From Anodontia alba (lineage: Eukaryota > Mollusca > Bivalvia > Lucinida > Lucinidae): a DNA stretch of 64,000 bases. The translations under genes and the position numbers were made by a program. Shown here in pieces: positions 1 to 57,540 of this stretch; the first letter of the stretch is position 1; every line of letters begins with the position of its first letter. The notes under the pieces were generated by a model that searched no databases, was not told the DNA's origin, and was given only the letters and a program-made list of their open reading frames with translations. Location of the stretch: positions 66,296,690 through 66,360,689 of the forward strand of contig OZ024830.1 of NCBI GenBank assembly GCA_964016985.1, in the 5' to 3' direction.

Positions 1-1636
1 GGTGACTTGTAGGTCAAAAATAGCTAAAATTGTTCCAATCTGAAATCCAACATGGCTGCCATCTTGAAAATCTATTTTTCGCTTCTTCTCCTGAACTGAA
101 AGGCCAATTGTTTCGAAACTTGGTAGGAAGCATTGGGGTGACTTGTAGATCAAAAATAGCTAAAATCGTGTCGATTGGAAATCTAAGATGGCTGCCATGG
201 TGGCCAGCTTGAAAATATATTTTCGCTTCTTCTCCTAAACCAAAAAGCCAATTGACACAAAACTTGTTAGGGAGCATCGGGGTGACTTGTAGATCAAAAA
301 TAGCTAAAATCATTCCGATCGGAAATCCAAGGTGGCAGCCATCTTGAAAATCTATTTTTCGCTTCTTCTCCTGAACTGAAAGGGCAATTGACTCGAAACT
401 TGGTAGGAAGCATCAGGGTGACTTGTAGATTAAAATAGCTAAAATCGTGCCGATCGGAAATCCAAGATGGCCACCATGGCAGCCATCCTGAAAATCTATT
501 TTTCGCTTCTTCTCCTAAACGCAAAAACCAATTGACTCGCAACTTGTTAGGGAGCATCGGGGTGAATTATAGATAAAATAAATGGCTAAAGTCGTTAACA
601 TTGGAAATCTAAGATGGCCGCAATAGCGCCATCTTGAAAATATATTTTTCGCTTCTTGTCCTGAACTGAAAGGCTTATTGACTTTAAACTAGGTAGGAAG
701 CGTCATGGTGACCTGTAGATCAAAAATAGCTAAAGTCGTCCCTTTCGGATATCCAAGATGGCCACCATGACAGCCATCTTGAAAATCTATTTTTCGCTTC
801 TTCTCCTGAACTGAAATGTCAGTTGACTCGAAACTTGGTAGGAAGTATTGGAGTGACTTGTAGATTTAAAATAGCTTAAATTATTTGGATCAGAAATCCA
901 AGATGGTTTTGAAACACTTTTTTTTTTGCTTACTTTCCTGAACCAAAGGGCCAATTTATTTGAAAATTGGTAGGAAGCATAGGGATGACTTGTAGATCAA
1001 AAAGAGCTAAAATCATTCCAATCGGAACTCCAAGGTGGCGTCCATCTTGAAAATCTAATTTTCCCTTCTTCTTCTGAACTGAAAGTCCAATTGACTTGAA
1101 ACTTGATAGGAAGCATCGGGGTGACTTGTAGACAAAAATAGCTCAAATTGTTTCGATAGGAAATCCCAAATTGTGGCCATGGCGGCAATCTTGAAAATCT
1201 GTTTTGAACTTTTTCTCCAGAACCAAAAGGGCAATTGACTCAAAGTTCATTGGAATTATAGAGGTGACTTGTAGATTAACAGCTAGCTAAAATCATTCTG
1301 ATCCGAAATCCAAGATGGCTGCCATCTTGTTATGTTTATTATATTTCCCTGCCACCAGCTGTGCTGTTTACATGTATAAAATCATGATTCTTCAGAAACT
1401 ACTTAGCCAGTTGCCACCAAATTTCACATTGATCCTACTCTGAAATGTGATTGAGAGTTTGTTCAAATGATCATGCTCCATTGACCGTCATGCCATATAT
1501 ATTCTTCTTCAAAATTAAGAACTGCTTAAATGATCTTTTCATTAGTTGCGATGACAGGATTTGAAAAATGTTGCATAACATCTGCATTTCTGCAGTGGCT
1601 ATGTCATTCAGGTGAGCAACCTGTGGGCCTCTTGTT
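1..1636 (+). repeat. Element with 136-bp tandem array (plus), 5' end outside window
   Basis: About nine diverged units of roughly 136 bp run from 1 to about 1340. Each reads through a GGTGACTTGTAGATCAAAAA segment, an AAGATGGCNGCCATCTTGAAAA segment, TTTTTCGCTTCTTCTCCTGA and AACTTGGTAGGAAGCATC. The reverse complement of the same unit forms the arrays at 42.85-46.4 kb and in the triplicated block. After the array a unique tail (1341-1610) leads to CAGGTGAGC, GTGGGC and CTCTTGTT ending at 1636, the 3' end shared with the other elements here. Several units keep an open frame, but the frame drifts between units, so it is read as non-coding. Confidence 0.75.
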
Positions 1637-1656
1637 ATTATTATTATTATTATTTT
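1636..1656. repeat. (TTA)n microsatellite
   Basis: A short TTA run lies directly against the CTCTTGTT 3' end of the preceding element. A T-rich simple repeat abutting this end is also seen after 7735. Confidence 0.7.
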
Positions 1657-1850
1657 GTAGCTTATTAATGTTTTTAAGAAATAAAAATAGAAATCAGACA
1701 AATTTCAGATTTGAACAACTAATAAAATAGAGCCTCCCTCTCCCTCTCTCCATGGATACAACTCATAAATTTACCCATTTATGCCTTTTATTACAGACAG
1801 TTGTTGAATCATTTAACTTAACAATATTAGACATCTTTGTTGTACATGTA

Positions 1851-2165
1851 TACGAAGGGTGTTCAAATATGAATGCAACTAGGCCAATATCTCGCTTTTA
1901 ACCACGATTTGCATGAAATAGGTACATATATCGTATAGATGGTTGTGTAAGCTCTCCATTGATACATGTGTAAATCCGTTCAGTCTAGCTTTGACAATTG
2001 CTCGATTAACACTGTCTACTCGTGTACACTAAAGCTAAAATGGTTTGGAAAAGGTCTCCTTTCACTGACCAAATACGGTCCTATATCAAGAACTGCTGTA
2101 TTCTTGGTATACAATGCTTCGTCACACAAAGCAGCCATTGTATGCGAATATCTGATATATAACCC
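1851..2165 (+). pseudogene. Mariner 5' remnant (TIR plus first codons of transposase)
   Basis: TA at 1851 is followed by CGAAGGGTGTTCAAAT, close to the terminal sequence of the intact mariner at 34123 (CGAGGGATGTTCGAAATG). About 190 bp downstream an ATG at 2040 opens a frame starting MVWKRSPFTDQIRSYIK, which resembles the mariner transposase N-terminus (the intact copy has MVGRSVDKKDEIRAYIK). The similarity stops after about 20 codons and the frame soon enters a palindromic repeat (about 2165-2250). The rest of the transposase and the 3' TIR are absent. It is a short, dead fragment; the assignment rests on the TIR plus the N-terminal match. Confidence 0.5.
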
Positions 2166-2250
2166 CCAAATATTGGATCAGACAGGTGAGAAAACACTGC
2201 ATCAGATGCTGTTAAATGCTGCATCTGATCAAGGTCTGCATTGTTTGTAA
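2165..2250. repeat. Imperfect palindromic repeat, TGATCAGGGTCT family
   Basis: Two inverted GCATCAGATG/GCATCTGATC blocks are followed by AAGGTCTGCATTG. This is a diverged member of the dispersed palindromes at 3491, 12060 and 13778. Confidence 0.45.
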
Positions 2251-2461
2251 TTTGTCTAGCATCTTTTTAGACACATCAACAGGCTTTGGTCCAATTTTAG
2301 ACAAAGTATGGCACAGAATTAAGATGTTTCAATAGTTAAAGTAAATACAATAATTTTCAATATTAAATAATTGTGTAAGCTGACCGTGAAAGTTCTGATC
2401 AACCAGAATAGATGGACAGGCTGATTTAGGTCTTGGCTGTCCTGTAGACAAGACAACAGGC

Positions 2462-2740
2462 ATTACGAAAACACGCTAATTCAAATATATTGAGAATTTT
2501 ACCACCAAAAAGATTGAAAATTTTCAGATAAAAAATCCTGATATTTTTCATATTTCTGCTCAAAATATAGATTGTGGGTACTCATTAGAACTGCCTCAGT
2601 GAGGTGGTTCTAACAAGTATCCACAATCTATGTATTTGAAAAGAAATAAGAAAAATAATGTATACCCCTGCAAACCCCAATTCTACTAAATAAAAGGGGG
2701 TTTAAGGGGGTCAAAATTATATAGGCGTGTTTTCATGATG
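2462..2740. repeat. MITE of about 280 bp with internal hairpin
   Basis: The ends carry CGAAAACACGC and GCGTGTTTTCAT as short inverted repeats. The centre (about 2568-2630) is a hairpin built from TACTCATTAGAA and TTCTAACAAGTA around GCCTCAGTGAGG. The reverse complement of the whole segment recurs at about 44300-44580, flanked by the same terminal motif, which fixes the boundaries. No coding capacity is visible. Confidence 0.65.
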
Positions 2741-2745
2741 CATAG

Positions 2746-3480: not shown

Positions 3481-3490
3481 CCTGAGCAAT

Positions 3491-4697: not shown

Positions 4698-6509
4698 TTT
4701 TTAGCTCACCTGAGCCAAAGGTGAGCTATTGTGATCACCCACCGTCCGTCGTCGTCGTCCGTCTGTCCGTCCGATCACAATCTTTAAACAACATCTCCTC
4801 CTAAACCACTGAATGATCCTTGGTTGGTCCTCTTTCAAAGTTGTTCAAATGGTTCCGGTCCATTGCATATCTAGGTCACAGGAGCTAAAAATAGATTTTT
4901 AACTAAAAAACTTAAAACATCTTCTTGCCAGAAACCATTGGACCGATTTCAATATAATTTTGCAGAAAAGTTCCTTTGGTGATCCTCTACCAAATTTGTT
5001 CAAGCCATTATATTTGTCAAAAAACATGGCCTCCCGGGGGCTTGGCTTATTTTCCCTATATATCTATATAGAAAACTATAAAACTCTTGTCAGAAATCAC
5101 TGGACCGATTTCAATATAACATGGCAGGAATGTTTCTTTTGTAACCCTCCACCGAGATTGTTCTAGCCATTATGATTCATCCAAAAACATGGCTGCCATA
5201 GGGGTGGGGGTGGGTTGGGGTGGGGCTTATTTTCCCTATATATCTATATAGAAAACTTTAAAGATCTTCTTGTTAGAAACCACTCGACCGATTTCAATAT
5301 AACCTGTGTGTTTCCTTTGTAATCCTCTACCAAGATTGTTCAAGCCGTCATGAAATGTCAAAAAACATGGTCGCTAGGGGGCGGGGCTTATTTTCACTAT
5401 ATCTATATAGAAAACTTTAATGATCTTCTTGTCAGTAACCACTGGACCGATTTCAATATAACATTGCAGGAATGTTTCATTTGTAACCCTCTACCAAGAT
5501 TGTTCAAGCTGTCATGATTCGTCAAAAAACATGGCCGCCAGGGGAGGGGCTTATTTTCCCTGTATACCTACATAGAAAACTTAAAAAAAACTTCTTGTCA
5601 GAAACCACTGGACTGATTTCATTATAACTTGGCAGAAATGTTTCCTTGGTGACCCTCTACCAAGATTGTTCAAGCAATCATGATTCGTCAAAAAACATGG
5701 CTGCTAGGGGTGGGGTTTATTTTCCCTATATATCTTTATAGAAAACTTTAAAAATTTTCTCATAAGAAACCGTTGGAACGAGTTCAATGTAACTTGGCAG
5801 AATGTTGCTTTGGTGACCTACCAAGATTGTTCAAGCCCTCATGATACTTCAAAAAACATGACCACCAGGGGGCGGGGCTTAGTTTCCGTATATATCTGTA
5901 AACTCGGAAATTTTTAAAATTCTTCTTGTCAGAAACCACCTGACCAATTTCAATATTACTTGGCAGGAATGTTGCTTTGGTGACCTTCTACCAAGATTGT
6001 TCAAGCAGTCTTGATTCGTCAAAAAACATGGCTGCTAGGGGTGGGGCTTATTTTCCCTATCTATCTAAATAGAAAACTTTAAAAATCTTCTTGTCAGAAA
6101 CCGATTTCAATATAACTTTGGCAGGAATGTTCCTTTGATAAGTTTGTTTAAGCTGTCATGATTTGTCAAAAAACATGGCCGTTAGGGGGCGGGGCTTATT
6201 TTCCCTATATAGCTGTATAAAACACTTTAAAAATCTTTTTGTCAGAAACCATTGGACCAATTTCAATATAACTTGGCAGAAATGTTCCTTTGGTGATCCT
6301 CTTTCAAGATTCAGTTCAAGCCGTTATGATGTGTCAAAAAAAAAAAAAAAAAAGCCGCTGAGGGTGGGGGCGGGGGGAGGGGGTAGGGGGCAGGGCTATA
6401 AAATTTATGCAAAAATCTTAGAGCAGTGAACTTGGCTGAAACTTCAACAGTACGTATGCATATCTGTTTGCTCAGGTGAGCGTATAGGACCATCATGGTC
6501 CTCTTGTTT
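4698..6509 (+). mobile_element. Complete array-bearing element with shared termini (165-bp units)
   Basis: The 5' end is TTTTTAGCTCACCTGAGC, followed by TGAGCTATTGTGATCAC and a GTCCGTC-rich stretch. About nine units of roughly 165 bp follow, each with AAAAAACATGG near its start, then GGGGCGGGGCTTATTTTCCC, CAGAAACCACTGGACCGATT and CCAAGATTGTTCAAGC. The 3' end has CTCAGGTGAGC, the stem-loop GGACCATCATGGTCC and CTCTTGTT (to 6509). The terminal CTCACCTGAG/CTCAGGTGAG pair is an inverted repeat. No transposase is present. The stem-loop close to a fixed 3' end is Helitron-like, but a CTRR terminus is not seen. Confidence 0.75.
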
Positions 6510-7071: not shown

Positions 7072-7735
7072 ACAAGGAAAACTTTAAAAATCTTCTTGTC
7101 AGAAACCACTGGACTGATTTCAGTATAACTTGGCAGAAATGTTTCTGTGGTGACCCTCTACCAAGATTGTTCAAGCCGTCATGATAAGTAAAAAAACATG
7201 GTTTCTAGTGGGAGGGGGTGGGGGGGTGGGGGGCGGGGTTCCTTTGGTGACCTTCCACCAAGATTCATCAAGCCTTCTTGATTGGTCAAAAAACATGGCT
7301 GCTGTGGGATGGGGCTTGCTTATTTTCCCTATATATCTATATAGAAAACTTTAAAAATCTGCTTGTCAGAAACCACCTCACTGATTTCAATATAATTGGC
7401 AGGAATATTCCTTTGGTGACCCTCTACCAAGATTGTCCAAGCAATCGTGATTCATCAAAAAACCTGACTGCTAGGGGGCGGGGCTTTAAAAATCTTCTTG
7501 TCAGAAACCATTGGAAATATTTCAGTGTAACTTGGCAGAAATGTTCATTTGGTGACCCTCTATCAAGATTCAATTAAAACCATCATGATGCGTACAAAAA
7601 ACATGGCAGCTAGGGGGCAGCGCTACAAAAATTATTCTTAAGTCTTAGAGCAGTGAACTTGGCTGAAGCTTCAATGTAATTGTGCAAATCTGTTTGCTAA
7701 GGTGAGAAATCTAGGACCATCATGGTCCTCTTGTT
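7072..7735 (+). mobile_element. 5'-truncated copy of the 165-bp-array element
   Basis: Three to four units of the same array as 4698-6509 begin abruptly inside a unit. The shared 3' terminal region follows: GAGCAGTGAACTTGGCTGAA, GGACCATCATGGTCC and CTCTTGTT ending at 7735. The CTCAGGTGAGC motif is worn to CTAAGGTGAG here. The 5' half, with the AGCTCACC start, is missing. Confidence 0.7.
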
Positions 7736-7809: not shown

Positions 7810-8066
7810 AACAAGAGGATCATGTCAATGACATAATGCTCCTACAAAATGGAGTAGCAGTGCTATATATGGCAAGCAGTGCCCCATTTTTTTATCCGCT
7901 TTTAAAACAAATTTCAAAGAAGACCACCCCGGATCATTCCATTTAAGTCAGGTCAAAATCCAAAACAATAAAGAAATTGCCATTGGCCGGCCGGCCGGAT
8001 GACAAAAACAGATGGCGACCGATCACAATAACTCACCATGAGCACATGGTGCTCAGGTGAGATAAC
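7810..8066 (-). mobile_element. Short (257 bp) element with the shared ends, minus strand
   Basis: Read on the minus strand it begins TTATCTCACCTGAGCACC, has TATTGTGATCGGTCG like the other 5' ends, and finishes CCTCTTGTT (plus-strand AACAAGAGG at 7810). It contains no tandem array, so it looks like a minimal or internally deleted family member. It lies 75 bp from the copy ending at 7735, in the opposite orientation. Confidence 0.6.
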
Positions 8067-17414: not shown

Positions 17415-20206
17415 AACAAGAGACCCAGGGGCCACAACTCGCTCACCTGAGTGAAACCGCCACTGCAGATATGCAGATGGCATGCAACATTTTTCCAATA
17501 CTGTCAACTATTGAAACTTATGAAAAGACAACTAAACAGTTTTTGAGATATCTTGCTTACAAGGTTAAAATACTGAAATTTTCAAAGTGCCACAAGTAAA
17601 AAAAGTTCAAATATTTTTCAGAAGATATTTGATTCATCTATTTATCCTGTCCTTTAAAAGTTTTTTTAGCTCTGTCAACCATTTTGTTCAGCAGAGCAGA
17701 ACCACTTCAGCAATTTTGGCAATGGGGCATAAGAGGAACATTGTTGTGAAATTATTTTGAAATCTGGCCACTGGCTACGCAGATATCGTTTAAAGGGTTT
17801 TCTATTTTTAGCTCTGGTGGTCATTTTGTTCAGCAGAGCAGAACCATTTTGGCAATTTTGGTAAAGGGGGATAAGAGGAACATTTTGAAATCAGACTACT
17901 GGCCAAGGAGGAGATTTTTTTTTTCTATTTTTAGCTCTAGCGGCCATTTGCTTCAGCCGAGCAGAACTTTTTTAGCAATTATAGTAAAGCGATGTAAGAG
18001 GAATACTTCTGTGAAATTACTTTGAAATCAGGATGTCTTTTAAAGGGTTTTCTATTTTTATCTCTGGCTGCCATTCTGTTCATCCAAGCAGAACTCTTTT
18101 AACAAGTCTGGTAGTGAGCCACTGGCGGAACACTTCTGTGCAAATATAATTTGAAATCAAGCCATTGGACAAGGACAAGATGTTTTTTGAAGATTTTCTA
18201 TTTCCAGTTCTCGCGACCATCTTGTTGTTGCAACCATCTTGGATTACCGATCGACACAATTTTAGCTCATTTCAATCCAGAAATCATCCTGTTGCTACAG
18301 AGCAGTTTCGGCTCAAGGCAACCAAAGGTTTGGGAAGAGATGTCGAAAATTGATTTACAAGATGGCAGCCCTGGCAGCCATCTTGAATTTTCTATCGGCT
18401 CATTTAGATAATTTGTGTCTATTATTAGTGCAATTATGCTAGTCAACAAGTTTCAATTCAACTGGATTGTAGAGATGCCCAAAATATGAATTCTCAACAT
18501 TTTCCCCATATAAATGTATAGGGCCCATACAAATGCATGCCAGGGCAAATTTGACCTTGCCGTTAAAAGGTCAAACGTCAACATCGGACCATCATTTTAG
18601 CAATTTTGATAGACCTCCCATCCATGATGATTTGTGCCCCTGGTTCTGGAGAAGAAGATTTTAAAGGTTTTTACCATATATGGGCATGGCGGCCATCTTG
18701 ATCAATAAACCGCGACCATTTTAGCAATCATTCTTTCCCCTGCCCCAAGGAGGCTCCACATGAAATTTGAAAAACATTGATCTAGCGGCTTCAGAGGAGA
18801 AGTCATTTGAAATTCTCAGCATTTTTCTCATATAAACATATGGGGCCAATACAAATGCATAGGGAAGTAAACTTGACCTTGCCCTAAAAGATCAAATGTC
18901 AAATTTTTTAGCAACTTTGGTAGACCTCTCGTCCTCGATGATTTATGCAAAGATTCAGCTCCAAGGCTTCCTCAATTCTGGAGAAGGTTTTTACCATGTG
19001 TGGGTATGATGGCCATCTTGGTCAATGGACCGCGACCATTTTGGCAATCTTTCGTTCCCCTACCCCAAGGAGGCTCCACTTGAAATTTCAGCTACATTGG
19101 CCCAGAGGCGTAAGAGGAGAAATCGGTTGAAATTCTCAACATTTTTCCCATACAAATGTATGGTGCCCAAACAAATGCATGGGGAAGCAAACTTGACCTT
19201 GTCGTAAAAAGGTCCAACGTCAATGTACAACAATTATTTTGGTAGACCTCTCGTCCTCGATGATTTATGCAAAGATTCAGCTCCAAGGCTTCCTCAATTC
19301 TGGAGAAGGTTTTTACCATGTGTGGGTATGATGGCCATCTTGGTCAATGGGCCGCGACCATTTTTGCAATCTTTCGTTCCCCTACCCCAAGGAGGCTCCA
19401 CTTGAAATTTCAGCTACATTGGCCCAGAGGCGTAAGAGGAGAAATCGGTTGAAATTCTCAACATTTTTCCCATACAAATGTATGGTGCCCAAACAAATGC
19501 ATGGGGAAGCAAACTTGACCTTGTCGTAAAAAGGTCCAACGTCAATGTACAACAATTATTTTGGTAGACCTCTCGTCCTCGATGATTTATGCAAAGATTC
19601 AGCTCCAAGGCTTCCTCAATTCTGGAGAAGGTTTTTACCATGTGTGGGTATGATGGCCATCTTGGTCAATGGACCGCGACCATTTTTGCAATCTTTCGTT
19701 CCCCTACCCCAAGGAGGCTCCACTTGAAATTTCAGCTACATTGGCCCAGAGGCGTAAGAGGAGAAATCGGTTGAAATTCTCAACATTTTTCCCATACAAA
19801 TGTATGGTGCCCAAACAAATGCATGGGGAAGCAAACTTGACCTTGTCGTAAAAAGGTCCAACGTCAATGTACAACAATTATTTTAGCAATTTTGGTAGAT
19901 CGCTCGTCCCCGATGATTTGTGCAAAGATTCAGCCCCAAGGCATCCTTAGATCTGGAGAAGAAGATTTTTAAATGTTTTTACCATATATGGTCATGGCGG
20001 CCATCTTGGTCAATGGACCACGACCATTTTAGCAATCGTTTGTTCCCCCAACATAAGGAGGCTCCATATGAAATTTGAGCAAAATTGGCTCAGCGGCTTC
20101 AGAGAAGTCGTTTGAAAATGTTAACGGACGGACGGATGGAAGGACGGACGACAGACGAAAAGTGATCACTATTGCTCATCCTGAACATAGCTCAGGTGAG
20201 CTAAAA
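17415..20206 (-). mobile_element. Complete array-bearing element with shared termini (minus)
   Basis: Read on the minus strand it starts TTTTAGCTCACCTGAGC (20206), then GCAATAGTGATCACTT and a GTCCGTCC-rich stretch. It ends CTCAGGTGAGCGAGTTGTGG, CCCCTGGGTCTCTTGTT (17415). Inside are at least two array types: about four 130-bp units (17660-18190) and a 322-bp array (18919-19884) with diverged flanking units. The 70 bp inside the 3' end match 1545-1625 (GAAAAATGTTGCAT, ATCTGCATNTCTGCAGTGGC), tying it to the element at the window start. No transposase is encoded. Confidence 0.75.
18919..19884. repeat. Three near-identical 322-bp tandem units
   Basis: Three direct copies of 322 bp, at about 18919, 19241 and 19563, differ at only a few sites by eye (for example TCAATGGACCGCG against TCAATGGGCCGCG). 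Flanking units (18600-18918 and 19885-20110) are clearly diverged. Each unit has GATGGCCATCTTGGTCAATG and TTGACCTTGTCGTAAAAAGG. Small frames of 60-75 codons repeat in every copy only because the DNA repeats. Confidence 0.8.
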
Positions 20207-20296: not shown

Positions 20297-22484
20297 TTTT
20301 TAGCTCACCAGAGCCGAAGGCCCTGGGGGAGCTTATAGGATAGGTATTGGTCCGTAGTCCGGTGTCGGCGTCGATGTCAGCGTCGGCGTCGTTCACACTT
20401 TCAAATGACATCTCCTCTGAAGCCGCTTGGCCAATCATGACAAAATTTTATCTGAAGCACCTATCCACTGCGGGATTTTAAATTTGTGTTCTTTATGAAA
20501 ATCAGCTATCAAGTTTGGTTGCTATGGTAACCTAAAGTTTCCATAGACTTATAATGGGGAAAATAGAAATATAGTAATTAAGCCATTACAGATATTTTAA
20601 CAAAACTGCTTCAGAAATACTCCTTGAGTGGTCCTCTATTAAGCAGATGATTATTTTGCTCAGTGCTCATTCTGATTGGTTGCCATGGCAAAATACAAGC
20701 AAACAATAAAATAAAAGATACCTATAAAAATTATATCGTCAGAAACCATATGGAACATAGGGCTGAGAAATATTCTTTGTACTAGGCTCTACAAATGTTG
20801 TGTTTTTCATTGCTATTGCTGAAAAGCGCTGGTATGTATGGTAACTTAAAGTTGCCATAGACTTATAGTTGGCAAATAGAAAACTGGCATTTATTGTTAA
20901 GCCATTGCTGATATTTTGACAAAACTTTAATAGAAATGTTCCTTGAATGGTCCTCTAGCAGGCAGATGATTTTGCTGCCCAGTCCTGATTTTGATTGTTG
21001 CCATGGCAACCAAAATCCGTAAAAAGGGAGAATATCTTTAAAAATCATCTCAAAAAGGATATGGAACATAGGGCTGAGATTTTGCAGAAATATTCTTTTT
21101 ATTAGTCTGAACAATTTTTGTGTTTTTTATTGCTATTGCTTGTATGTTAACTTAAAGTAGCCATAGACTTACAATGAGAAAATAGAAAAATGGCATTTAT
21201 TGTCAAGCCCTTGCAGATATTTTGACAAAACTTTTACAGAATTGTTCCCTTGAGTGGTCCTCTACCAGGAAGATGATTCTTCTGCCCAGTGTTAATTTCT
21301 TTAGTTATCTGCCCTTGGCAAAATTTCGTGTTCAGGCTATAACGTCTTTAATGGATTGAAATATTTTCTTGAAAATTCTCAAATATACTTAGCTTGACAA
21401 CAGGGTATGTTCCGACAAAGAAGAATCATTCTAACTGCTTACTTTTGGTGTTATCTGCCCTTGTTATAGGTTGTCATGGAAACCAAAATGAAAAAAAAAA
21501 AGAAAAAGAAAATACTTAAGAAAATCATCTCTTTAGAAGATCTATGAGGCTGAGGCTTTATGGAAATATTCACCATTTGCCTTAACAGTTTTTTTATGAA
21601 ATAATGCTCCTTAGTTTGGTTGCTATGGCATGGCAACTTTCCATAGACTTAAAAAATGACTTTTACTGCCAAGCCTTTATAGATCCTCTATGAGCTTATG
21701 ATTTTAGGCCTGCTGCTCATTTTTATTGGATGCCATTAAAACCAAAATGCCCCCCCCCCTCCCCTCCCCCCACTACAAAATAAAATATAAATAAATAAAT
21801 AAATAAATAAATAAAATAAGATAAAAAAAAAAAACATATGCTCTATGAGGCTGAGACAATGGAAATATTCACCATATTGTACTTTCTAGGTTTTATATTC
21901 TTTATGAAATTCAGCTCTTTTAGTTTGTTTGCTATGGCAACTTAGAGTTTCCATAGACTTAGGGAAAATTGAAAAACGACATTTACTGCCAAGCCTTTCA
22001 AGATATTTTGACAAAACTTTCAAAGAAATTTTCCTTAAGCAATGTTCTATCTGCCATATGATTTTAGGCCTACTGCTCATTTATATTGGTTGCGACAGAA
22101 ACCAAAATGCAAAATGCAAAAAAAAATAATAATAAATAAATAAATAAAATAAAATAAAATTAAAAAAATCCAAAGAAACCATATGCTGAATGAGGCTGAA
22201 ACTTTATAGAAATATCAACCGTATTAACCATTACTAGTTTCGTGTTTTTTTAGCTCACCAGAGCCAAAGGCTCCGTGGGGCGTTATAGGGTGGGCAGTTG
22301 TCTGTCGTTGCCTGGCGTCTTGCGTCAGCACATTCAAATGATATCTCCTCTGAATCCACTGCATCCAAATTTCATCTGTAGCATCCTTGGGCTGGGGCTG
22401 CCGTGGTTTATAAAAATACATGGCTGCCAGTGGGCAGTGCCCACCTTACCTCTGGTGAGCATAGTGGCCCATTGGTCTCTTGTT
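20297..22484 (+). mobile_element. Array-bearing element with shared termini, diverged 5' motif (plus)
   Basis: It starts TTTTTAGCTCACCAGAGCC and GGGGGAGCTTATAGGAT. Next come five or so diverged units of 280-320 bp marked by GGTTGCTATGGCAACTTA, AGTTTCCATAGACTTA, AGATATTTTGACAAAACTTT and TGAGTGGTCCTCTA. A second internal TTTTTAGCTCACCAGAGCC at 22245 opens a 240-bp terminal module ending CTCTGGTGAGCATAGTGGCC then CTCTTGTT (22484). The block 22160-22484 recurs colinearly at 57210-57540, so the module travels with this element and is not a chance insertion. Poly-C and (AAAT)n tracts interrupt the array near 21750-21840 and 22110-22160. Confidence 0.65.
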
Positions 22485-42152: not shown

Positions 42153-43199
42153 GTTTATCCGAAAAAAAAAAATCCCTATCTAAATCTACCTATTTTTGTC
42201 TAACATGTTACCCTAAACACACATTTTCTTTTGGTCTTTGAGCTTGCGAACATGTGACTGGTATCCTATCCCCCCACCCCCAGAGCCAGAAATACGTGTT
42301 TTTCATTCCAAATCTAATTCGTGTCGCGCCGACGGCATGACTTTTCTATGTACACGTCTTCTGTAAAACTGAAACAAAATGTTTTCTGATAACATACTTC
42401 AGTAGGTGGATTTCTGTATTTTAATAAATACGACATCAGCGGATATTTGGGATGTTTTTGGTTGGAATGGAGCCAAGGGCCTTTTGCTTTCTCAATAAAC
42501 CCAGGTCGGATGGCATATAACGCACCGTCGTATTCTCTCAGATAGATGTTCGTCAGCTTAGTGACCCAAAGGACTGCAACATACAAACTGCTCTAAACTA
42601 GGACTTATTCTTATTGTGTAGATATAGAAATATCTTGCTATATTTTCGATATCAATCGATCATGCTGGTACTCGAAGCGCCAACCCTGAAAAAATAAGTT
42701 ACCCACCCCCTCATTATTTTCATTGAAAGTGTTTTCATATTTTCCTTTGCAATAAGATTTAGCAGCATTTCTTTTAACAAGAGCACCAAGACAATAAAAG
42801 TCAAAAGAGGATTGCCTTTGGACCCTGTATCGCTCACTGATTACCAGATAAATTGGAATTTCGGTTCAGGAGAAGTGCAAAACAGTTTTCCAAGATAGCG
42901 ATCATGGCGCCATCTTGGATTTCTGATCGGAAGGATTTTAGCTCTTTTTTATTTACAAGTCATCCTGATGCTTCCTATCAAATTTGGATTAAGTTGGCCT
43001 TTCGGTTCAGAAGAAGAAGCGAAAAATAGATTTTAAGATGGCAGCCATGGCGGCCATCTTGGATTTCCGAATAGAATGATTTTAGCTATTTTGATCTACT
43101 ACTTACCCCGATGCCTCCTATCGTTTTAAGACAACCAGCCTTTTGTTTAGAATCAGAATTTGTACTGGTCTAATGACATTTATTCACCAGGCCCTATGA

Positions 43200-43566
43200 T
43201 ATGAGAAGTTAGTCCCTAACTCTCACCAGAGATGTAAACCTAGCCACACTATCCTCTGCACCTTCAACAGAGGTAATAATCGTCTGGAAGGGCAATTTAA
43301 TCTCTGATTGTTTGAGGGAAGAATGAGCCGTTGTGAATGTCAGTTCTTGCAGCGGTGGTCTAAAAACCCAATGACTGATGATTTCTGCTGCGCCTAACTG
43401 GGGGAATACGATAATCTGTTGGAATACTGGACCTTTGTACAAAAAATCAGTCTACTGTCTCTCCTTCTTTTCTTGAGAGACGCCCATTTTAGTGATTCCA
43501 GTACTACAGTCATACTCCCAGTTTTAAAACAGTAGTTGCTAGTAACAAACTTTGCAGCCCTATTCT

Positions 43567-43600
<34 letters not shown>

Positions 43601-44042
43601 CGATTTCTTATTGAAGAACCACGCATTGGGGATCCCAAACACAGCTGTCATATTCCAAAATGGGGCCTGAGGATAAAGATTTTGTCTCAGGAAACCAAGA
43701 GTTCCATTTTCCTTAGTACACATGTTGCTGATATGTGTATTCCATCTCAAGTCATTCGTGATTGTTACTTCTAGGTATTTAATGGAATATGCATTTTCGA
43801 GGACCCTACCCTCTAAAGTGTAAGCAGCCTCAATCTTATTTGTTCTTTCCCTAGTTATCTGCATTATTTTGCATTTGACTGGCCGAAATCTCGTACCCCA
43901 TTTTCTGGCCATCCTTATGTATCTATATCCTTCTGAAGTTTCAATGTGTCGTCTGTGCCTCTGATTTCACGATAGCAAACACAGTCATCTGCGAGGTCTT
44001 ATTTCTGAGTGTGTCTGTGGACATATCATTTATGTAAACTTG
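43200..44042 (-). pseudogene. CR1/Jockey-like LINE reverse transcriptase, 3' fragment
   Basis: The minus strand begins with VYIND, shifts frame, then gives LADDCVCYREI (the FADD-type catalytic box) and, downstream, RKWGTRFRPVKCKIMQI, RVLENAYSIKYLEVTIT, DLRWNTHISNMCTKENG, NRAAKFVTSNYCFKTGSM and LKWASLKKRRRDSRL. These are the thumb and post-RT blocks of CR1/Jockey-type elements, where KYLGVTI and WNTHI are usual. The frame runs through a 33-bp poly-T (43569-43601) that replaces a few codons with a lysine run. The C-terminal end follows near 43209-43442. The 5' two thirds, including the endonuclease, are absent, as for a 5'-truncated copy. Confidence 0.8.
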
Positions 44043-44299
44043 GATTCTGATAGAATCAAATTTTCGCTATTTTTGATCTACAAGTCACCGCAATGCTTCC
44101 TATTAAGTTTCAAGTCAATTGGCCTTTTGGTTCAGAAGAAGAAGCGAAAAATAGATTTTTAAGATGGCAGCCATCTTGGATTTCCGATCGGAACGATTTA
44201 AGCTTTTTTTTTTTTTTTTTTTTTTTGTACCAAGTCACCCCGATGCTTCCTATCAAGTTTTAAGTCAATTGGCGTTTCGATTCAGGAGAAGAAGCAAAA

Positions 44300-44580
44300 C
44301 ATCACGAAAACATGCCTATATAATTTTGACCCCCTTAAACCCCATTTTTGTATAGTAAAACTGGGGTTTACAGGGGTATACATTATTTTTCTTATTTCCG
44401 CTCAAAAACATAGATTGTGGTTCTCGTAAGAACCGCCTTGGCGAGGCGGTTCTAACGAATACACAAAATCTATGTCTTGAGCAGATATACGAAAAAGTAT
44501 CAGAGTATTTTTTATCTGAAAACGTTCGGTTTTTGGAGGTGAAATTTTCTATATATTTGAATAGGCTTGTTTTCGTAATG
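44300..44580. repeat. MITE, inverted copy of 2462-2740
   Basis: It carries ACGAAAACATGCCTATAT at the left and GGCTTGTTTTCGTAATG at the right, with the hairpin GAACCGCCTTGGCGAGGCGGTTC in the middle. It is colinear with the reverse complement of 2462-2740. The 136-bp array continues on both sides, so this is an insertion. Confidence 0.65.
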
Positions 44581-44815
44581 AATAGATTTTCAAGATGGCC
44601 TTCTTGGATTTCTGATCGGAAAAAGTTTAGACTTTTTTATCTTAAAGTCGCCCTTATACTTCCTACCAAGTTTCAAGTTAATTGGCTATTTGATTCAGGA
44701 GAAGAGCGAAAAAAGGGTTTTCAGGCTGGCCGTCATGGCGCCTATCTTAGATTTCCGATTGGAATGATTTTCGCTATTTTTGATGTACAAAAAAAAAAAA
44801 GTAAGAGAAAAGTTC

Positions 44816-45063
44816 AGGGAGTGCCACAATCACAAACCGCAGCCCTTCCCATACACCAAGAGAAGAGGAAGCCGACAAATCCAAACAAGCACAAATCGAA
44901 CAAACGTACGAAAAGCACTAAGGTTAGCTCTCTCTTCCCCAAGCGAGATAATCGCAATGCTAAAAGGACTGAAAAAGGCAAGAAAAAAAGGTAAGACATA
45001 AAACAAATCGCCTCGTAGAATAAACAACAAAGCAACAAAGAGTAAGACTAACACCGGAACCAC
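44816..45063 (+). repeat. Dispersed repeat beginning GTTCAGGGAGTGCC, copy 2
   Basis: Matches 10680-10960 across its length (CGCAGCCCTTCCCATACACC, AAGCGAGATAATCGCAATGC, GTAAGACTAACACCGG). It interrupts a 136-bp unit. The plus-strand frame is open for about 60 codons here but not in the other copies. Confidence 0.65.
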
Positions 45064-46832
45064 AAATCACCGCGATACTACCTACAAAGTTTTAAGTCAA
45101 TTGGACTTTTGGTTCAGAAAAAATAGATTTTCAAGATCCACGGCGGCAATCTTGGATTTCGGATCGAAACGATTTTAGATATTTTTGATCTACAAGCCAT
45201 TCCGATGCAGCCTATTAAGTTTCAAGTTAATTGGCCTTTCGATTCAGGAGAAGAAGCGAAAAATATATTTTCAAGATGGCTGCCACGGCGGCTATTTGTG
45301 ATTTCCGATCGGAACGGTTGAAGCTATTTTTGATCTACAAGTAAGATGCTTCCTACCGAGTTACAAGTCAATTGGCCCTTAGGTTCAGGGGAAGAAGCAA
45401 AAAATAGTGTTTCGAGATGGCTGCCACTGATTTCGGATAGGAACAATTTGAGCTATTTTTATCTACAAGTCACCACAATGCTTCCTACCGAGTTTCAAAT
45501 CAAATGGCTTTTTGGTTCAGGAGAAGAAGCGATAAATAGATTTTCAAGATGACTGCCACGGCAGCAATCTTGGATTTTGGATCGAAACGATTTTAGATAT
45601 TTTTGATCTACAAGCCACCCCGATGTAGCCTATTAAGTTTCAAGTCAATTAATTGGCCTTTCGACTCAGGAGAAGAAGCGAAAAATAGATTTTTAAGATG
45701 GCGGCCATCTTGGATTTTCGATCGGAACGATTTTAGCTGTTTTTGTACCAAGTCACCCTAATGCTTCCTACCAAGTTTTAAGTCAATTGGCGTTTCGGTT
45801 CAGGAGAAGGAAAAAATAGATTTTCAAGATGGCGGCCATGGTGGCCACCTTGAATTTCCGATTGGAACAATTTTAGATATTTTTTTATCTAAAAGTCACC
45901 CTGGTGCTTCCTACCAAGTTTCAAGTCAATTGGCTTTTTGGCTCAGGGGAAAAAGCGAAAAATAGAAAAATAGATTTAAGATGGTCGCCACGGCGGATTT
46001 CGGATGGAAACGATTTTAGATATTTTGATCTACAAACCACTCCGATGCATTCTACCAAGTTTCAAGTCAATTGGCTTTTTGGTTCAGGAGAAGAAGCGAA
46101 AAACAGATTTTCAAGATTGCCGCCACGGCGGCTATCTTGGATTTAGGATCGGAACGATTTTAGCTATTTTTGATCTATAAGTCACCCCAATACTTCCTAC
46201 CAAATTTCGAATGAAATGGCTTTTTGGGTCAGAAGGAAAAGCGAAAAAAATATTTTTAAGATGGCGGCCACGGCGGTCATCATATATTTCCGGAACGATT
46301 TTAGCAATTTTCTATTGAAACTGAAAAAAAAGATTTTCAAGATGGCCGCCGTGGGCCACGGCGGCCATCTTTGATTTTGTATCGGAACGATTATATATTT
46401 TTTTTATCTGTAAGTTACACCAATGCTTCCTACCAAGTTTCAAGTCAACTGGCCCAAGGGTGTAGGAGGAGTAGGCTTTTAAAGCAAAGTGTTGACGCAC
46501 GACGGACGACGGACATTGACCGATCACAACTGCTCACCTTGACTACTTCGTGCTTAGGTGAGCTTAATATAGTTTGCACTTACTTTCAACACGCAGACTA
46601 ACTAAATGTCATTTTGATATTTAAACTGTTTAACACCAAGACTGGATGAAATGAGATCATCTACTGCATCGTTTCAAACAAACCAGACTGATCTAACCCA
46701 TGTCCATTTATTCGTTGTTAGTCTTTCACCAATTTGTTTACTTCCAACCAAATCATGGACTGATTCCTAAACAATTTTGTACAAATCAATCCTCTAGACT
46801 TGAACACTACTGTCGTGATAAATTTATATTTA

Positions 46833-47168
46833 CAGTCAAACTTCAATGGCTCGAACATCTTTGGGACCATGGAAATTTGTTCGAGAGATGGGTAGTTCGA
46901 GTCAATGAGATTTAATCATCACGATAATTTATGAAAATGTTTTCGATCTTCAACAAAATAATGGTATGTTGCGTGTACTCATTAGAATCGCCTCGATGAG
47001 GCGATTCTAATGAGTACACGCAACATACAATTTCATAATAATATAAGAAAATTTCTCTCAATATTTGTTTTCTTGAGCTATCGGAAAAATTCCGTAGGGA
47101 CTCAAAAATGAGTTCGAAAAAGCCATGGTAAACGAGCCATCGGTGTTCGAGACATTGAAGTTAGACTG
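46833..47168. repeat. TA-flanked MITE (pogo/Tigger-like ends) with nested hairpin
   Basis: The left CAGTCAAACTTCAATGGCTC and the right, inverted, CAGTCTAACTTCAATGTCTC form TIRs flanked by TA (46831 and 47169). Inner arms ATGGCTCGAACA and TGGCTCGTTTACCATGG also oppose. The hairpin at 46970-47030, GTACTCATTAGAATCGCCTC against GAGGCGATTCTAATGAGTAC, belongs to the GCCTCG hairpin family. Copies lie at 49188-49523 and 51543-51878 through the block duplication. It is non-coding; the CAGT start and TA duplication suit pogo-type MITEs. Confidence 0.65.
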
Positions 47169-47891: not shown

Positions 47892-48015
47892 ATTAGCTCC
47901 CCTGAGCCTTAAGGTTCATAGGTGAGCTTATAATATAGGCAGGCTCTACTGTCCGTCCGACGTCCGTCATCATCTCCTCACAAACCACCGGGCCAGTCAA
48001 AGCCAAAGGGGCAGT
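47892..48015 (+). repeat. 5' terminal module of an array-bearing element, cut by the duplication join
   Basis: TTAGCTCCCCTGAGCC, AGGTGAGCTTATAATATAGG and GTCCGTCCGACGTCCGTC form the diverged 5' end. It stops at the duplication junction, so in copies 1 and 2 it is fused to the 136-bp array. Just upstream, CCATGAACCTCTTGTC (about 47872-47887) is a separate 3' end. Repeated at 50247 and 52602. Confidence 0.6.
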
Positions 48016-50370
48016 TTCGACTCAGGAGAAGAAGCGAAAAATAGATTTTTAAGATGGCGGCCATCTTGGATTTTCGATCGGAACGATTTTAGCTGTTTTT
48101 GTACCAAGTCACCCTAATGCTTCCTACCAAGTTTTAAGTCAATTGGCGTTTCGGTTCAGGAGTAGGAAAAATAGATTTTCAAGATGGCGGCCATGGTGGC
48201 CACCTTGAATTTCCGATTGGAACAATTTTAGATATTTTTTTATCTAAAAGTCACCCTGGTGCTTCCTACCAAGTTTCAAGTCAATTGGCTTTTTGGCTCA
48301 GGGGAAAAAGCGAAAAATAGAAAAATAGATTTAAGATGGTCGCCACGGCGGATTTCGGATGGAAACGATTTTAGATATTTTGATCTACAAACCACTCCGA
48401 TGCATTCTACCAAGTTTCAAGTCAATTGGCTTTTTGGTTCAGGAGAAGAAGCGAAAAACAGATTTTCAAGATTGCCGCCACGGCGGCTATCTTGGATTTA
48501 GGATCGGAACGATTTTAGCTATTTTTGATCTATAAGTCACCCCAATACTTCCTACCAAATTTCGAATGAAATGGCTTTTTGGGTCAGAAGGAAAAGCGAA
48601 AAAAATATTTTTAAGATGGCGGCCACGGCGGTCATCATATATTTCCGGAACGATTTTAGCAATTTTCTACTGAAACTGAAAAAAAAGATTTTCAAGATGG
48701 CCGCCGTGGGCCACGGCGGCCATCTTTGATTTTGTATCGGAACGATTATATATTTTTTTTATCTGTAAGTTACACCAATGCTTCCTACCAAGTTTCAAGT
48801 CAACTGGCCCAAGGGTGTAGGAGGAGTAGGCTTTTAAAGCAAAGTGTTGACGCACGACGGACGACGGACATTGACCGATCACAACTGCTCACCTTGACTA
48901 CTTCGTGCTTAGGTGAGCTTAATATAGTTTGCACTTACTTTCAACACACAGACTAACTAAATGTCATTTTGATATTTAAACTGTTTAACACCAAGACTGG
49001 ATGAAATGAGATCATCTACTGCATCGTTTCAAACAAACCAGACTGATCTAACCCATGTCCATTTATTCGTTGTTAGTCTTTCACCAATTTGTTTACTTCC
49101 AACCAAATCATGGACTGATTCCTAAACAATTTTGTACAAATCAATCCTCTAGACTTGAACACTACTGTCGTGATAAATTTATATTTACAGTCAAACTTCA
49201 ATGGCTCGAACATCTTTGGGACCATGGAAATTTGTTCGAGAGATGGGTAGTTCGAGTCAATGAGATTTAATCATCACGATAATTTATGAAAATGTTTTCG
49301 ATCTTCAACAAAATAATGGTATGTTGCGTGTACTCATTAGAATCGCCTCGATGAGGCGATTCTAATGAGTACACGCAACATACAATTTCATAATAATATA
49401 AGAAAATTTCTCTCAATATTTGTTTTCTTGAGCTATCGGAAAAATTCCGTAGGGACTCAAAAATGAGTTCGAAAAAGCCATGGTAAACGAGCCATCGGTG
49501 TTCGAGACATTGAAGTTAGACTGTATTTCTACAACAGTAGTGTCACACCTTTGTGGTCTGCCGACGGGATGATCCACCTGGTAGACGGCAGCTGTTGTAT
49601 TTCTATCTTTTCTTTCCTTATCCCTTCTAACACTCATAAATTGCTGGTTTGGTGTATTGTCAATAAAACAATACATCTTCTTTGTTTCAGTTAATTGGAT
49701 GGCTAGTTAATTAGTCTGTCAACTGACTAGTAGACAGCCAGTTAATTAGTTTTTCATTGATTTGTATATCATTTTCTCAAAATGTATTGAATAATCATAT
49801 CTGAAACTTACAATGTATGATTAAAGTAATAAAACGTTTTAGTTACAATCAAATTTATATCTGACCTTACCCACGGGCTATATACATGTATAAAATGGTG
49901 TAATCGTTAAACGTCTTCTCTGAAACCACTTTACAAATTTTCAGCATAGGGCCTTCTATTGAAGGGGTATTTTTAATTTGTTCAAGATGACCGCCATGCC
50001 CATATAAGGTGAAACACTTAAAGATCTTCTCTAGAACAAAGAAAGCTTTGAGGCTGACGCAAAGTCTACCCAATTTGTTTAAACTTGTCATTCTAAAATT
50101 ACCATTGACCTTTTTACGGCACAGTCAGTTTTCTATCCTAGTTGATTGGCAATACTAGAAGAATATATTGCGTGGCAACTGCAGAATTGCTATGGCTGAT
50201 TTACTCAGGCCAGTGAATCATGACCCATGAACCTCTTGTCATTATTATTAGCTCCCCTGAGCCTTAAGGTTCATAGGTGAGCTTATAATATAGGCAGGCT
50301 CTACTGTCCGTCCGACGTCCGTCATCATCTCCTCACAAACCACCGGGCCAGTCAAAGCCAAAGGGGCAGT
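48016..50370 (+). repeat. Triplicated 2.36-kb block, copy 2 (2355 bp)
   Basis: Nearly identical to copy 1. Differences seen include GGAGTAGGAAAAATAG against GGAGAAGGAAAAAATAG, CTACTGAAACTG against CTATTGAAACTG, CAACACACAGAC against CAACACGCAGAC, and CCCACGGGC against CCCATGGGC. Confidence 0.95.
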
Positions 50371-52724: not shown

Positions 52725-52829
52725 GTCAATAAGCCCTGATTTTGAACTCTAGCCGATTTTGTTTTTAATCATCTTAAATGACCCCTTATGTACATGCTTT
52801 ATGTATGCAAGCAATGGAATGGAACGGAG

Positions 52830-55046: not shown

Positions 55047-55270
55047 AGCGCGGTAGCTCAGTGGTGAGCGCACTGGCCTCTAGAGCTAAAAGAATCGGGA
55101 TAGACCCCCTTATGCGAGGGAATTTTCGGTGTCCGAACACGCTTTCCTTCATGTCATTTGCAGGCATGAAAGAAAAACAGTGTGCCGTCCTTCGGATCGG
55201 GAAAACTGCAGGCAAACTCACACCATGTGCAAGTTAAAGAACCATACCACGGTAATTCAAATTAGTTACT
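55047..55270 (+). repeat. tRNA-derived SINE
   Basis: The head AGCGCGGTAGCTCAGTGGTG has a canonical A box TAGCTCAGTGG (55054-55064). The B box region (near GGGATAGACCCC) is degenerate. The body has ACACGCTTTCCTTCATGTCA, GGCATGAAAGAA and CCGTCCTTCGGATCGG. A promoter-bearing retroposon; the cloverleaf is too damaged to be a tRNA gene. Confidence 0.65.
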
Positions 55271-55329
55271 TGTAGGCTTTCATCCTGCAGCCCGGGGTGT
55301 ACAATGTACGCCGTCTGGGTCCTCCTAGG

Positions 55330-55362
55330 AAGTTTAGACGTAAAGAAAGAAAGAAAGAAAGG
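55330..55362. repeat. (AAAG)n simple repeat
   Basis: A GAAAGAAAGAAAGAAAG run just downstream of the SINE, possibly its degraded A-rich tail. Confidence 0.5.
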
Positions 55363-55550
55363 CAGTATTTTACGCCATTGCCCATAATAATATGTTGTTT
55401 TTCATTTTTCCATATTACGATTTGGATCGTACTGAAGTACTGCTTTTGCAAACAGTATCAATATCAAAATAAAATAGAAGATAAACAAAGAAATAAAGAA
55501 AAACAACAGCTCAAAATGTTTATTACACTCACACGCACACACACACTAAT

Positions 55551-55777
55551 GCGGGCCCCCGTAGCCTAGTGGATAGGAGAGTTGACTCTTAATCCATTAG
55601 GTTTCTCACCGCTGTGGTTCGAGCCTCGCTTGGGTCACATGTGGGAAAGCCAAGTTCTGCTTACGGATGGTCAGGTGGTTTTTCCCCGGGTTCTCCGGTT
55701 TTCGCCCACCTTTGATGAACAATCGGCTCGATATGTGAAATATTCTTGAAAGGGTCGTAAAACCCAAATCAAAATCA
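55551..55777 (+). repeat. tRNA-Lys-like SINE with conserved CCGGGTTCTCCGG core
   Basis: The head begins GGGCCCCCGTAGCCTAGTGG (A box TAGCCTAGTGG at 55562-55572) and has B box GGTTCGAGCCT (55616-55626), with CTT at the anticodon position (GACTCTTAATCC), as in tRNA-Lys(CTT). The body contains GGTGGTTTTTCCCCGGGTTC and TCCGGTTTTCGCCCACC, which resembles the central domain shared by some deeply conserved animal SINEs. The tail is AAACCCAAATCAAAATC. The good B box and core suggest a relatively young copy. Confidence 0.7.
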
Positions 55778-56009
55778 CCTACACAAAGGTCTCAATGAGA
55801 CTCAAACCCGTCCGTTCGTAGGAGAGGCCACAACATCCAGAGAACAGTATTAAGAACTGACCAAAATGAAAATACTTCTTGGCTAGATTTTTCAATGTAG
55901 TTTGAAATAAGTGAATCACCTTCTCCGTCCCCTTCCACCACCCCCTCCTCCCTCTCCCCACATACAGTTTGAAATAAGTGAATCATGAATCACCTCTCCC
56001 GTCCCCTTT

Positions 56010-56060
56010 TCCACTCCCTCCAATCCACCCCCCCCCCCACCACCACCACCACCAATACAC
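56010..56060. repeat. Poly-C and (CAC)n simple repeats
   Basis: A run of CCCCCCCCC followed by CACCACCACCACC. Upstream, TTTGAAATAAGTGAATCA and CCGTCCCCTTCCAC occur twice within 80 bp (55899 and 55967). Confidence 0.75.
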
Positions 56061-56329
56061 ACACAGAGAGAATATTCTTAATTTCGTATGCCATTGCGTT
56101 TTGATTTTATGTACATTGTTCTACTTTGGGAGAATTTGAAAAAAAGTATTGTCTTTAAATTAAAAAAAAATCAGAAAAAGTTACTAAATTCTATAAATCT
56201 CAAATCGAAATTATCAATGAAAGCTGATGAATGCTGATAAATTAGTGAAACCCCACTGGTAATCTTTTAATTCAGAGACGGTAAACTGGCATTTAAATGA
56301 CCACCTACTATCCATTCTTAGTGTTTACA

Positions 56330-56618
56330 CACAGGTGCAGCTTATTCAAAGCATATGGTCGTGAAAACATTTTACTAACGACCATATCACTTACCATTAC
56401 TGACTAGGGAAAAACTACCACTAAGTAAATGAACCTGAAATCGAAATTCAACTGTTACTGGCGACCTAACAAACAGCCACTTACTAATGACCGACAAACT
56501 ATCAATAATTGCTACTAACGACCCCGAAAACATCCACCAGCGGTTACTAGCGATCCTTTAGCTATCACTTACTGCTACCAACGCCCCACAAAATACCACA
56601 TACGACCCCACAAATTAT
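56330..56618 (+). repeat. Degenerate short tandem repeat (about 30-bp unit)
   Basis: Repeating phrases such as CTACTAACGACC, ACAAACTATCA and CACTTACT with GACCCCACAAA spacing appear eight or nine times in diverged form. Confidence 0.5.
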
Positions 56619-56655
56619 CACTGCCCTTCTTGGATCAGCGGAAAAGGAAGAATGA
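56618..56655 (-). repeat. SINE fragment (family of 14054)
   Basis: ACTGCCCTTCTTGGATCAGC then GGAAAAGGAAGAATGAC is the inverse of the SINE body segment near 14190-14220. Both ends are truncated. Confidence 0.55.
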
Positions 56656-57209
56656 CAATGAATGCTACATCTACAATTCAGACACCTACTTGAAATCTGC
56701 TGCTATACGGCAATCCAAACCTCTGTTGATATAAACAAAGCCATTTTTTATAAAGTGCATAAATTTGTATTGGACACTAAACGGTTTTAAATCTGTGGTA
56801 AATGCATGTTGCAGGTACAACTTGTCCCGAACAATATCTGCCTGTGGATGCAAGCTCAGTTGTTCCTCTCCCAGAATGCCATTTTCATATACTTTGTTAT
56901 ACACTGTTTGATTCTTACTACTGTTTTCTTATACAAACACTTATTGAATTATTTATTTATCTATTTATTTTTACTTTTTTTTTTTTTTTTTTTTTAATTT
57001 TTCTTTATTCTTATTTATTATTTTTACCTTCTTACATGAAATAACAATCACAACAGTTTGCCTTGATCTGTGAAACAATCTGCCTTCAAGTATACACCGT
57101 AGAGGAGAAGAACTCTATAAGTATTTAATGCTTTCGTTCTAATCCTGTTTCGTTTGCATGTCAAATTTGTTACCTTGTTGTACTTGTAATAAAATGTGTT
57201 TAAACCAAT

Positions 57210-57540
57210 GACAATAGAAAAGAAGAAGAAATACTTAAAAATCATCTCCTCAGAAACCATATGTTGTATGAGGCTGAAACTTTATAGAAATATTAACCAT
57301 ATTAGCCGTTTTGTGTTTTTTAGCTCACCACAGCCGACAGATCCGGGGGAGCTTATAGGATGGGCAGTTGTCCGTTGTTGTCTGTTGTCTGGCGTCAACA
57401 CAGTCAAACGATATCTCCTCTGAATCCACTTGGCCGATTGCGTCCAAGTTTCATGTTTAGCATTTTTGGGCTGGGGGTGCCATGGTTTATAAAAAAAACC
57501 TGAACTCTGGTGAGCATAGTGGCCCATGGGCCTCTTCTGT
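57210..57540 (+). mobile_element. 3' terminal part of an array-bearing element (second copy of 22160-22484)
   Basis: It begins in the array (AAATCATCTCCTCAGAAACC, ATATGTTGTATGAGGCTGAA), then TTTTTTAGCTCACCACAGCC at 57316, GGGGGAGCTTATAGGATGGG and GATATCTCCTCTGAATCCAC. It ends CTCTGGTGAGCATAGTGG, the stem-loop GGCCCATGGGCC and TCTTCTGTT. The colinearity with 22160-22484 shows this 330-bp unit spreads as a block. Confidence 0.65.

Follow-up and report, generated by a model that had tools for sequence, protein, structure and literature searches.

Elements of the Window

The window analysed here is the whole stretch of 64,000 nucleotides at C10:66296690-66360689 in the genome of the bivalve Anodontia alba, and the host genome that was searched comprises 1,862,613,979 bases in 317 contigs. 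With a GC content of 37%, the window carries a series of segments with similar ends and internal tandem arrays (Table 1). We read these segments as HINEs, i.e., non-autonomous Helentron (Helitron-like, rolling-circle) elements, which form several related families and would be moved in trans by a Rep-helicase; the probability of this reading is put at about 0.87. The layout of the elements begins at the 5′ end with (T)nAGCTCACCTGAGC, an inverted repeat and a GTCC-rich stretch, and finishes at the 3′ end with CTCAGGTGAGC, a hairpin and CTCTTGTT.

An earlier, sequence-only reading of the window had listed eight segments with shared ends. All eight are real and carry at least one end, some of these being degenerate, and four are complete; three more 5′ ends (47895, 50250 and 52604) had been missed. 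Segment 7810-8066, listed with the others, has both ends and is a complete 254-bp element on the minus strand without any array; its interior matches part of the 5′ module of B (p 5e-5). Several types of array are indeed present but they number only four, since the array of 42776-46564 is the 145-bp array of segment 1 on the opposite strand. The four types have units of 144–145 bp (A, G), 166 bp (B, C), 322 plus ~123 bp (E) and ~300 bp (F). The last was recognised by eye, Tandem Repeats Finder (TRF) making no such call; TRF gave periods of 144/280 bp in the array of segment 1, and the 166-bp array in 7072-7735 was assigned by sequence.

Table 1. Elements and associated features, with positions counted along the window.
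Label	Feature	Positions	Strand	Description
A	A-type HINE	1..1636	+	no 5′ end within the window; array of about nine 144-bp units followed by the 3′ end at 1607-1636
B	B-type HINE, complete	4703..6508	+	GTCC-rich stretch, 5′ module, 166-bp array 5217-6341, 3′ subterminal inverted repeat 6471, hairpin, CTCTTGTT
C	B-type HINE, 5′-truncated	7072..7735	+	3′ end 7697-7735
	Minimal complete HINE, 254 bp	7810..8063	-	both ends, no array
E	E-type HINE, complete	17415..20202	-	322-bp array 18664-20104, then ~123-bp units; 3′ end 17415
F	F-type HINE	20302..22484	+	outer 5′ end 20302, ~300-bp units, inner second 5′ end 22252, 3′ end 22484
Fs	F inner part	22252..22484	+	inner 5′ end, short module, 3′ end
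G	A-type HINE, rearranged	42776..46564	-	145-bp array, foreign insertions, degenerate 3′ end
	2355-bp tandem triplication, 99.8% identity	45663..52725		part of preceding array joined to + strand 5′ end
H	H-type 5′ end	47895..48018	+	copies at 50250 and 52604 in the triplication; preceded by degenerate 3′ tail of another element (by eye)
K	F-type HINE, 5′-truncated	57201..57541	+	array tail, inner 5′ end 57322, degenerate 3′ end CTCTTCTGTT

Ends and Copy Number

Both ends recur in the window more often than expected: the 5′ 16-mer TTTAGCTCACCTGAGC (up to three mismatches) has 14 matches against 0.41 expected and the 3′ 11-mer CTCAGGTGAGC (up to one mismatch) 17 against 0.39. A search of the complete genome with both termini, as proposed in the sequence-only reading, gave 11,184 exact 5′ ends (5554 + 5630; TTAGCTCACCTGAGC, 2–24 nt, GGTGAGCT) and 16,004 exact 3′ ends (7978 + 8026; CTCAGGTGAGC, 8–34 nt, CTCTTGTT), while the reversed patterns used as controls gave 0 and 2 matches, respectively. 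At each of the 11,184 places GGTGAGCT is the short inverted repeat that lies 2–24 nt behind the 5′ subterminal inverted repeat (subTIR). AGCTCACCTGAGC is inverted relative to GCTCAGGTGAGC, these repeats of 11–15 bp being placed near the 5′ end and subterminally at the 3′ end, where the repeat starts ~30–41 nt before the element end and ahead of the hairpin. By eye, a GTCC-rich (GTCY-type) microsatellite is present in most 5′ ends, though F-type ends and the minimal element show it weakly. Hairpins such as GGACCATCATGGTCC, GGGCCATCATGGCCC and GGCCCGTGGGCC stand behind the 3′ subTIR in genome copies. Folding of nine window ends revealed a local 3′ hairpin in six (B, C, minimal, F, K and the tail before H) and another fold in A, E and G.

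The 5′ boundary of the B element (4703) recurs among genome copies. Those similar to B start sharply at a T tract, have unrelated flanks and, where the 3′ end was located, stop sharply at CTCTTGTT. Five of them (L010–L014) have common flanks because B lies within a larger repeated unit, window 4183 to ~10600. This unit contains B, C and the minimal element together with 157-bp and 110–131-bp tandem arrays of its own.

Pattern scans were also made outside the host genome, in which viral contigs gave three, three and then no stretches and genome contigs three. These matches (L001–L009, on virus-collection or bacterial contigs) were rejected as relatives, none having a BLAST match to the window at E 1e-3. 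In the full-text literature, with subscription papers and Repbase lying outside the search, the only match to AGCTCACCTGAGC or GCTCAGGTGAGCG was a hypoxia paper on another system.

Insertion Sites

Two empty sites, both from this one genome, define the insertion. Locus L027 on contig 14 contains a B-type element whose 166-bp unit is repeated 15.5 times; the element lies inside an oligo-T tract that is common to the monomers of a 152-bp satellite. When joined, the flanks of this element match nine places where the 152-bp monomers are uninterrupted, at 81–85% along all 226 bp. At L050, a 1276-bp A-type element sits inside a 166-bp monomer of a B-type array, and its joined flanks match five uninterrupted 166-bp monomers across the junction at 78–81%, the empty site GGGGCTTATT^TTCC being restored with its four T (CTTATTTTCC). 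The target is T/T within oligo-T at both loci, with neither duplication nor loss. Ends and array are found together at these empty sites, and the moving unit is therefore the ends plus the array. The sequence-only reading had proposed a non-autonomous transposon whose ends are fixed and whose interior holds minisatellites, and had set beforehand, as the test, that the ends fall at insertion breakpoints and that arrays and ends insert together; this was observed at both loci.

The T tract of the 152-bp satellite at L027 is a landing site for three families. Two other elements meet this tract in neighbouring monomers: one of A type (91.8% to the L050 element) terminates there and one of E type (86% to window E over 439 bp) starts there. 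Among 15 B-type loci found by similarity, all 13 with a located 5′ end have 2–9 T in front of it; for the 14 loci found by pattern, two flanking T were already part of the search pattern.

Pairing of Ends and Arrays

The end pairing was investigated on contig 1 to ~12.7 Mb, with 55 of 100 listed 5′ ends and 68 of 100 listed 3′ ends. For 26 of the 55 exact 5′ ends a same-strand 3′ end was found within 6 kb downstream (sizes 1047–3326 bp), compared with 0/55 on the wrong strand, and the other 29 have no exact 3′ end within that distance. When three loop and hairpin classes (a, b and c) were set by eye after inspection of the end lists, the 5′ and 3′ classes agreed in 25 of the 26 pairs (9 a, 11 b and 5 c). 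The sole mismatch, C1:213287, is explained by nesting, an A-type element having inserted into the array of a B-type one (L050).

An array-blind sample of 14 loci was chosen by the 5′ loop alone. All six loci with ACGAAGTGC-like loops (L050, L051, L056, L057, L061 and L062) contain the same 145-bp array, and both loci with the AAAAGCTCAGGG loop (L052 and L053) contain a different 145-bp array, b145. L058 has a 320-bp unit related to the E unit and L060 a 180-bp unit, and none of these arrays was found within 3 kb in L054, L055, L059 and L063. In this small sample, array type follows end class wherever a class has more than one member. The 166-bp unit of the B class was found in 3.2 to 23.7 copies at 20 loci, which were collected by similarity to B and give no independent test of array type. 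Comparison of end identity with array match in 18 loci (153 pairs) gave 24 pairs alike in both, 82 in ends only, 2 in array only and 45 in neither (Fisher p 0.005), a table that is weak because the pairs are non-independent and the identity measure is generous.

A single family with swapped arrays was rejected by the end-pair table, the one exception in 26 being nested. The two corresponding proposals of the sequence-only reading are not supported: in place of one family with common ends, the window holds several end subfamilies differing in loop, 5′ module and 3′ hairpin, and arrays that were thought interchangeable belong to class-matched ends. Similar-looking ends hide separate families which keep their own arrays, and pooling them would wrongly suggest swapping.

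The F Family and Its Second 5′ End

The F element contains a second 5′ end (22252) just before its 3′ end. A query spanning the junction between array and inner 5′ end found this junction in 40 scored genome copies, the window included; these are the best 40 of 609 and do not cover every copy. Within the window the junction is also present in K. Since the junction is preserved in at least 40 copies, a chance nest was rejected as the explanation of the inner 5′ end. The outer 5′ part of F was likewise found in 40 scored copies, the best 40 of 1730. Comparison of the two sets of places by hand revealed that 8/40 scored outer matches lie 2.2–3.3 kb from 8/40 inner matches on the same strand, the window again included and a further pair at 7.6 kb left uncounted. 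Five of these eight pairs reach the outer 5′ end and three match only behind it. In some F copies a 58-bp tandem immediately precedes the inner 5′ end. It is concluded that the form with two 5′ ends, the second placed shortly ahead of the 3′ end, is the one in which the F family has spread.

Origin of the Arrays

In B, E, F and G (for G with the A unit as partner), the module behind the GTCC stretch resembles the family's own array, with p between 1e-10 and 3e-28. In the same test, which comprises 49 comparisons of module with unit, 5′ modules also matched units of other families with p down to 6e-7 (K against E322, followed by F and Fs against E322, B against E130 and E against A). Comparison of 11 units with each other gave p < 1e-3 in 9/55 pairs in forward and 0/55 in reverse orientation. 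The linked unit types, on the same strand only, are A145, E322, E130, B166, F300, L058 and L060, of which E322 and E130 lie in one element while F300 and L058 are stretches rather than consensus units. Three control arrays, namely the 157- and 128-bp arrays of another window repeat and the 152-bp satellite, are unlinked. The 5′ modules are related among themselves as well: nine modules gave p < 1e-3 in 9/36 pairs forward and in none reverse. A motif model of eight units scored 119.6, compared with 85.8–99.3 in ten shuffled sets, the shuffles being run with half the starts, and leave-one-out analysis supported A145 and B166 (0/1000 shuffles each), E130 (5) and Fs (16). A candidate box common to array units lies near CAAGATGGCCGCCA in this motif search.

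Several observations weigh against an origin of all arrays within the element or against a strict tie of array to end class. No link was found between the b145 array and the other arrays or modules when 11 units and the 5′ modules were compared. Fs and K, the inner modules of F, resemble the E unit but do not match the F array (p 0.9). Leave-one-out analysis failed for b145 (226), E322 (168) and L060 (390) and was borderline for the F array (50). Among 26 array-sharing pairs two have unlike 5′ ends (L058 and L055 against window E, over 76 and 83 nt). The likeness of a 5′ module to its own array may, moreover, mean only that the module is a first, partial repeat.

For the families of the window, these similarities favour arrays that grew out of a module belonging to the element and diverged afterwards, and the b145 array may have been captured. 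The sequence-only reading had left the choice as 'captures or regenerates'; regeneration comes closer, and capture is not supported for the window's arrays, whose units are related to each other and mostly to the 5′ modules, on the same strand only. We tentatively propose, though we would not yet lean on it, that all arrays descend from one old module of the element, which was seeded beside the 5′ end and then re-amplified and diverged in each family with orientation and boxes kept, and that the second 5′ end of F is functional, so that a single locus could release both long, array-bearing products and short ones of ~230 bp. If this is true, the element would be a generator of satellite DNA.

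Search for an Autonomous Partner

Scoring of all 139 candidates for the Helitron_like_N Rep domain gave 127 matches in the genome, and some of the Rep copies are 97–99.9% alike. All four Rep frames examined carry DUF6570 and Helitron_like_N, and one has a weak PIF1 match below the cut-off. The Rep loci on contigs 16, 7 and 1 (L031–L033) are Helitron-like elements with their own tandem repeats upstream of Rep; two of them, on different contigs, share 99.7% identity across 13.9 kb or more, which indicates recent movement.

Mechanism and Rival Explanations

The elements have the structural features of HINEs described in oysters, and they appear to belong to a known type, new in some details of structure. 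Both ends, the hairpin, oligo-T insertion without duplication or loss, joint movement of ends and array, and class-matched ends are all established at the level of sequence. By analogy with the superfamily, a Rep-helicase would act in trans on the HINE ends, with nicking at the 5′ end, strand displacement and a stop at the 3′ hairpin. As their similarity suggests, the arrays of the window families would have arisen by tandem duplication of the module beside the GTCC stretch and would then have diverged along with the ends, and the F family would have gained its second 5′ end just before the 3′ end and spread in that form. Two results weigh against the assignment to HINEs. An empty site was found for only one of 13 joined flanks (L027) when these were compared with the window and the fetched loci alone, L050 having been tested apart from that comparison. 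The autonomous copy that the sequence-only reading proposed to look for was not recovered either, as a HINE 5′ end was found upstream (~4–6 kb) of 0/11 Rep representatives (R1, R2, R3 and eight more), which cover 11 of the 127 matches and were scanned on the 3′ side for three only.

The rival with most in its favour, though we consider it unlikely, is capture, in which fixed ends take up foreign minisatellites through filler DNA or end bypass and the arrays are independent cargo. In its favour, the b145 array of the AAAAGCTCAGGG class (L052, L053) is without detectable relation to the others; HINEs insert into satellites and other arrays (L027, L050) and would thus come by raw material, and independent incorporation was argued for oyster groups 2 and 3 (PMC7492417). 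Nevertheless, seven unit types are linked to each other on the same strand only, 5′ modules in B, E, F and G resemble the units of their own family, and array type tracks end class, all of which argue against capture.

The remaining explanations concern the identity of the elements and are far less probable. The mutually inverted AGCTCACCTGAGC and GCTCAGGTGAGC could indicate miniature inverted-repeat transposable elements (MITEs) of a terminal-inverted-repeat (DDE) superfamily, and similar elements were earlier annotated as MITEs (PMC4067079); the 3′ repeat, however, is ~30–41 nt inside the end and before the hairpin, and target duplication is absent at two empty sites, which makes this very improbable. 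Slightly less probable again are canonical Helitrons (TC...CTRR, A/T target) with unusual internal repeats. Rep genes with Helitron_like_N do occur in the genome and a 3′ hairpin is common to canonical Helitrons and Helentrons (PMC4067079), but the 3′ end here is CTCTTGTT and not CTRR, the target is T/T and inverted repeats lie near both ends. The sequence-only reading had recognised the Helitron-like layout and the missing CTRR end, and both hold with the HINE features found; absence of CTRR is expected because Helentrons have a TT target and subterminal repeats (PMC4067079). Least credible of all is that large segmental or tandem duplication without transposition explains the repeated ends of the window. 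The 2355-bp triplication and the larger repeated unit from 4183 to ~10600 with B, C and minimal elements are duplications of that sort, against which stand the exact ends numbering thousands across the genome, the sharp boundaries and unrelated flanks of retrieved copies, and the empty sites.

Other Features of the Window

The 2355-bp triplication has its breakpoints within the array of a HINE and immediately after a 5′ end, away from the element ends. A rolling-circle concatemer was considered as its cause and rejected because the triplication junctions are not at element ends; it is either a recent tandem triplication or an assembly effect. In the element at 42776..46564, a frame near 43394-43966 resembles reverse transcriptase by eye. 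Also by eye, frames at 25610-26723, 34213-35292 and 60386-62204, some of them interrupted, resemble mariner/Tc1-type transposases, and the minus strand at 27779-28837 has frames like the reverse transcriptase of long interspersed nuclear elements (LINEs). Repeats with a central palindrome (GAACTGCCTCAGTGAGGTGGTTC-like), again seen by eye at 2465-2735, 44302-44580 and 46960-47060, are possibly another small element. Elsewhere in the genome, a 61-bp tandem duplication at ~2462-2577 of L059 contains a HINE 5′ end.

Comparison with Known Systems

By description rather than by sequence, the elements are like the bivalve Pearl family (CvA, CvE, MgE and DTC84), which is non-coding with short satellite-like arrays of ~160 bp (PMC7492417, PMC5139131). 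With DINE-1 and HINE of Drosophila and mites they have in common the subTIRs, the inverted repeat (DINE-1), the microsatellite, the 3′ palindrome, a T-rich target and optional tandem repeats (PMC4067079). In those systems autonomous partners with shared ends are known (PMC4067079), whereas none was found here among 11 Rep representatives.

The likeness to Cg_HINE of Crassostrea gigas (PMC7492417) extends over the whole element. It includes an 11–12 bp 5′ subTIR, a complementary inverted repeat and a GTCY/GTCC microsatellite, central arrays with monomers mostly of 140–180 bp, a 3′ subTIR followed by a palindrome, and a TT target without duplication. As in the clam, one array type goes with each flank pair, array orientation is constant and, in the account given by that source, no autonomous partner is linked. 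The same source calls the oyster group 2 repeats and group 3 modules unrelated, whereas here statistical links join the units of several end families both to one another and to 5′ modules. Unlike Cg_HINE, the clam F family has a second 5′ end before the 3′ end, and three families of the clam occupy one T tract of one satellite. Captured and element-made Helentron satellites were two open scenarios in oysters (PMC7492417). In the present genome the copies number thousands, the ends fall into several families and the empty sites are clean; for most arrays of the window, an internal origin is favoured by the data.

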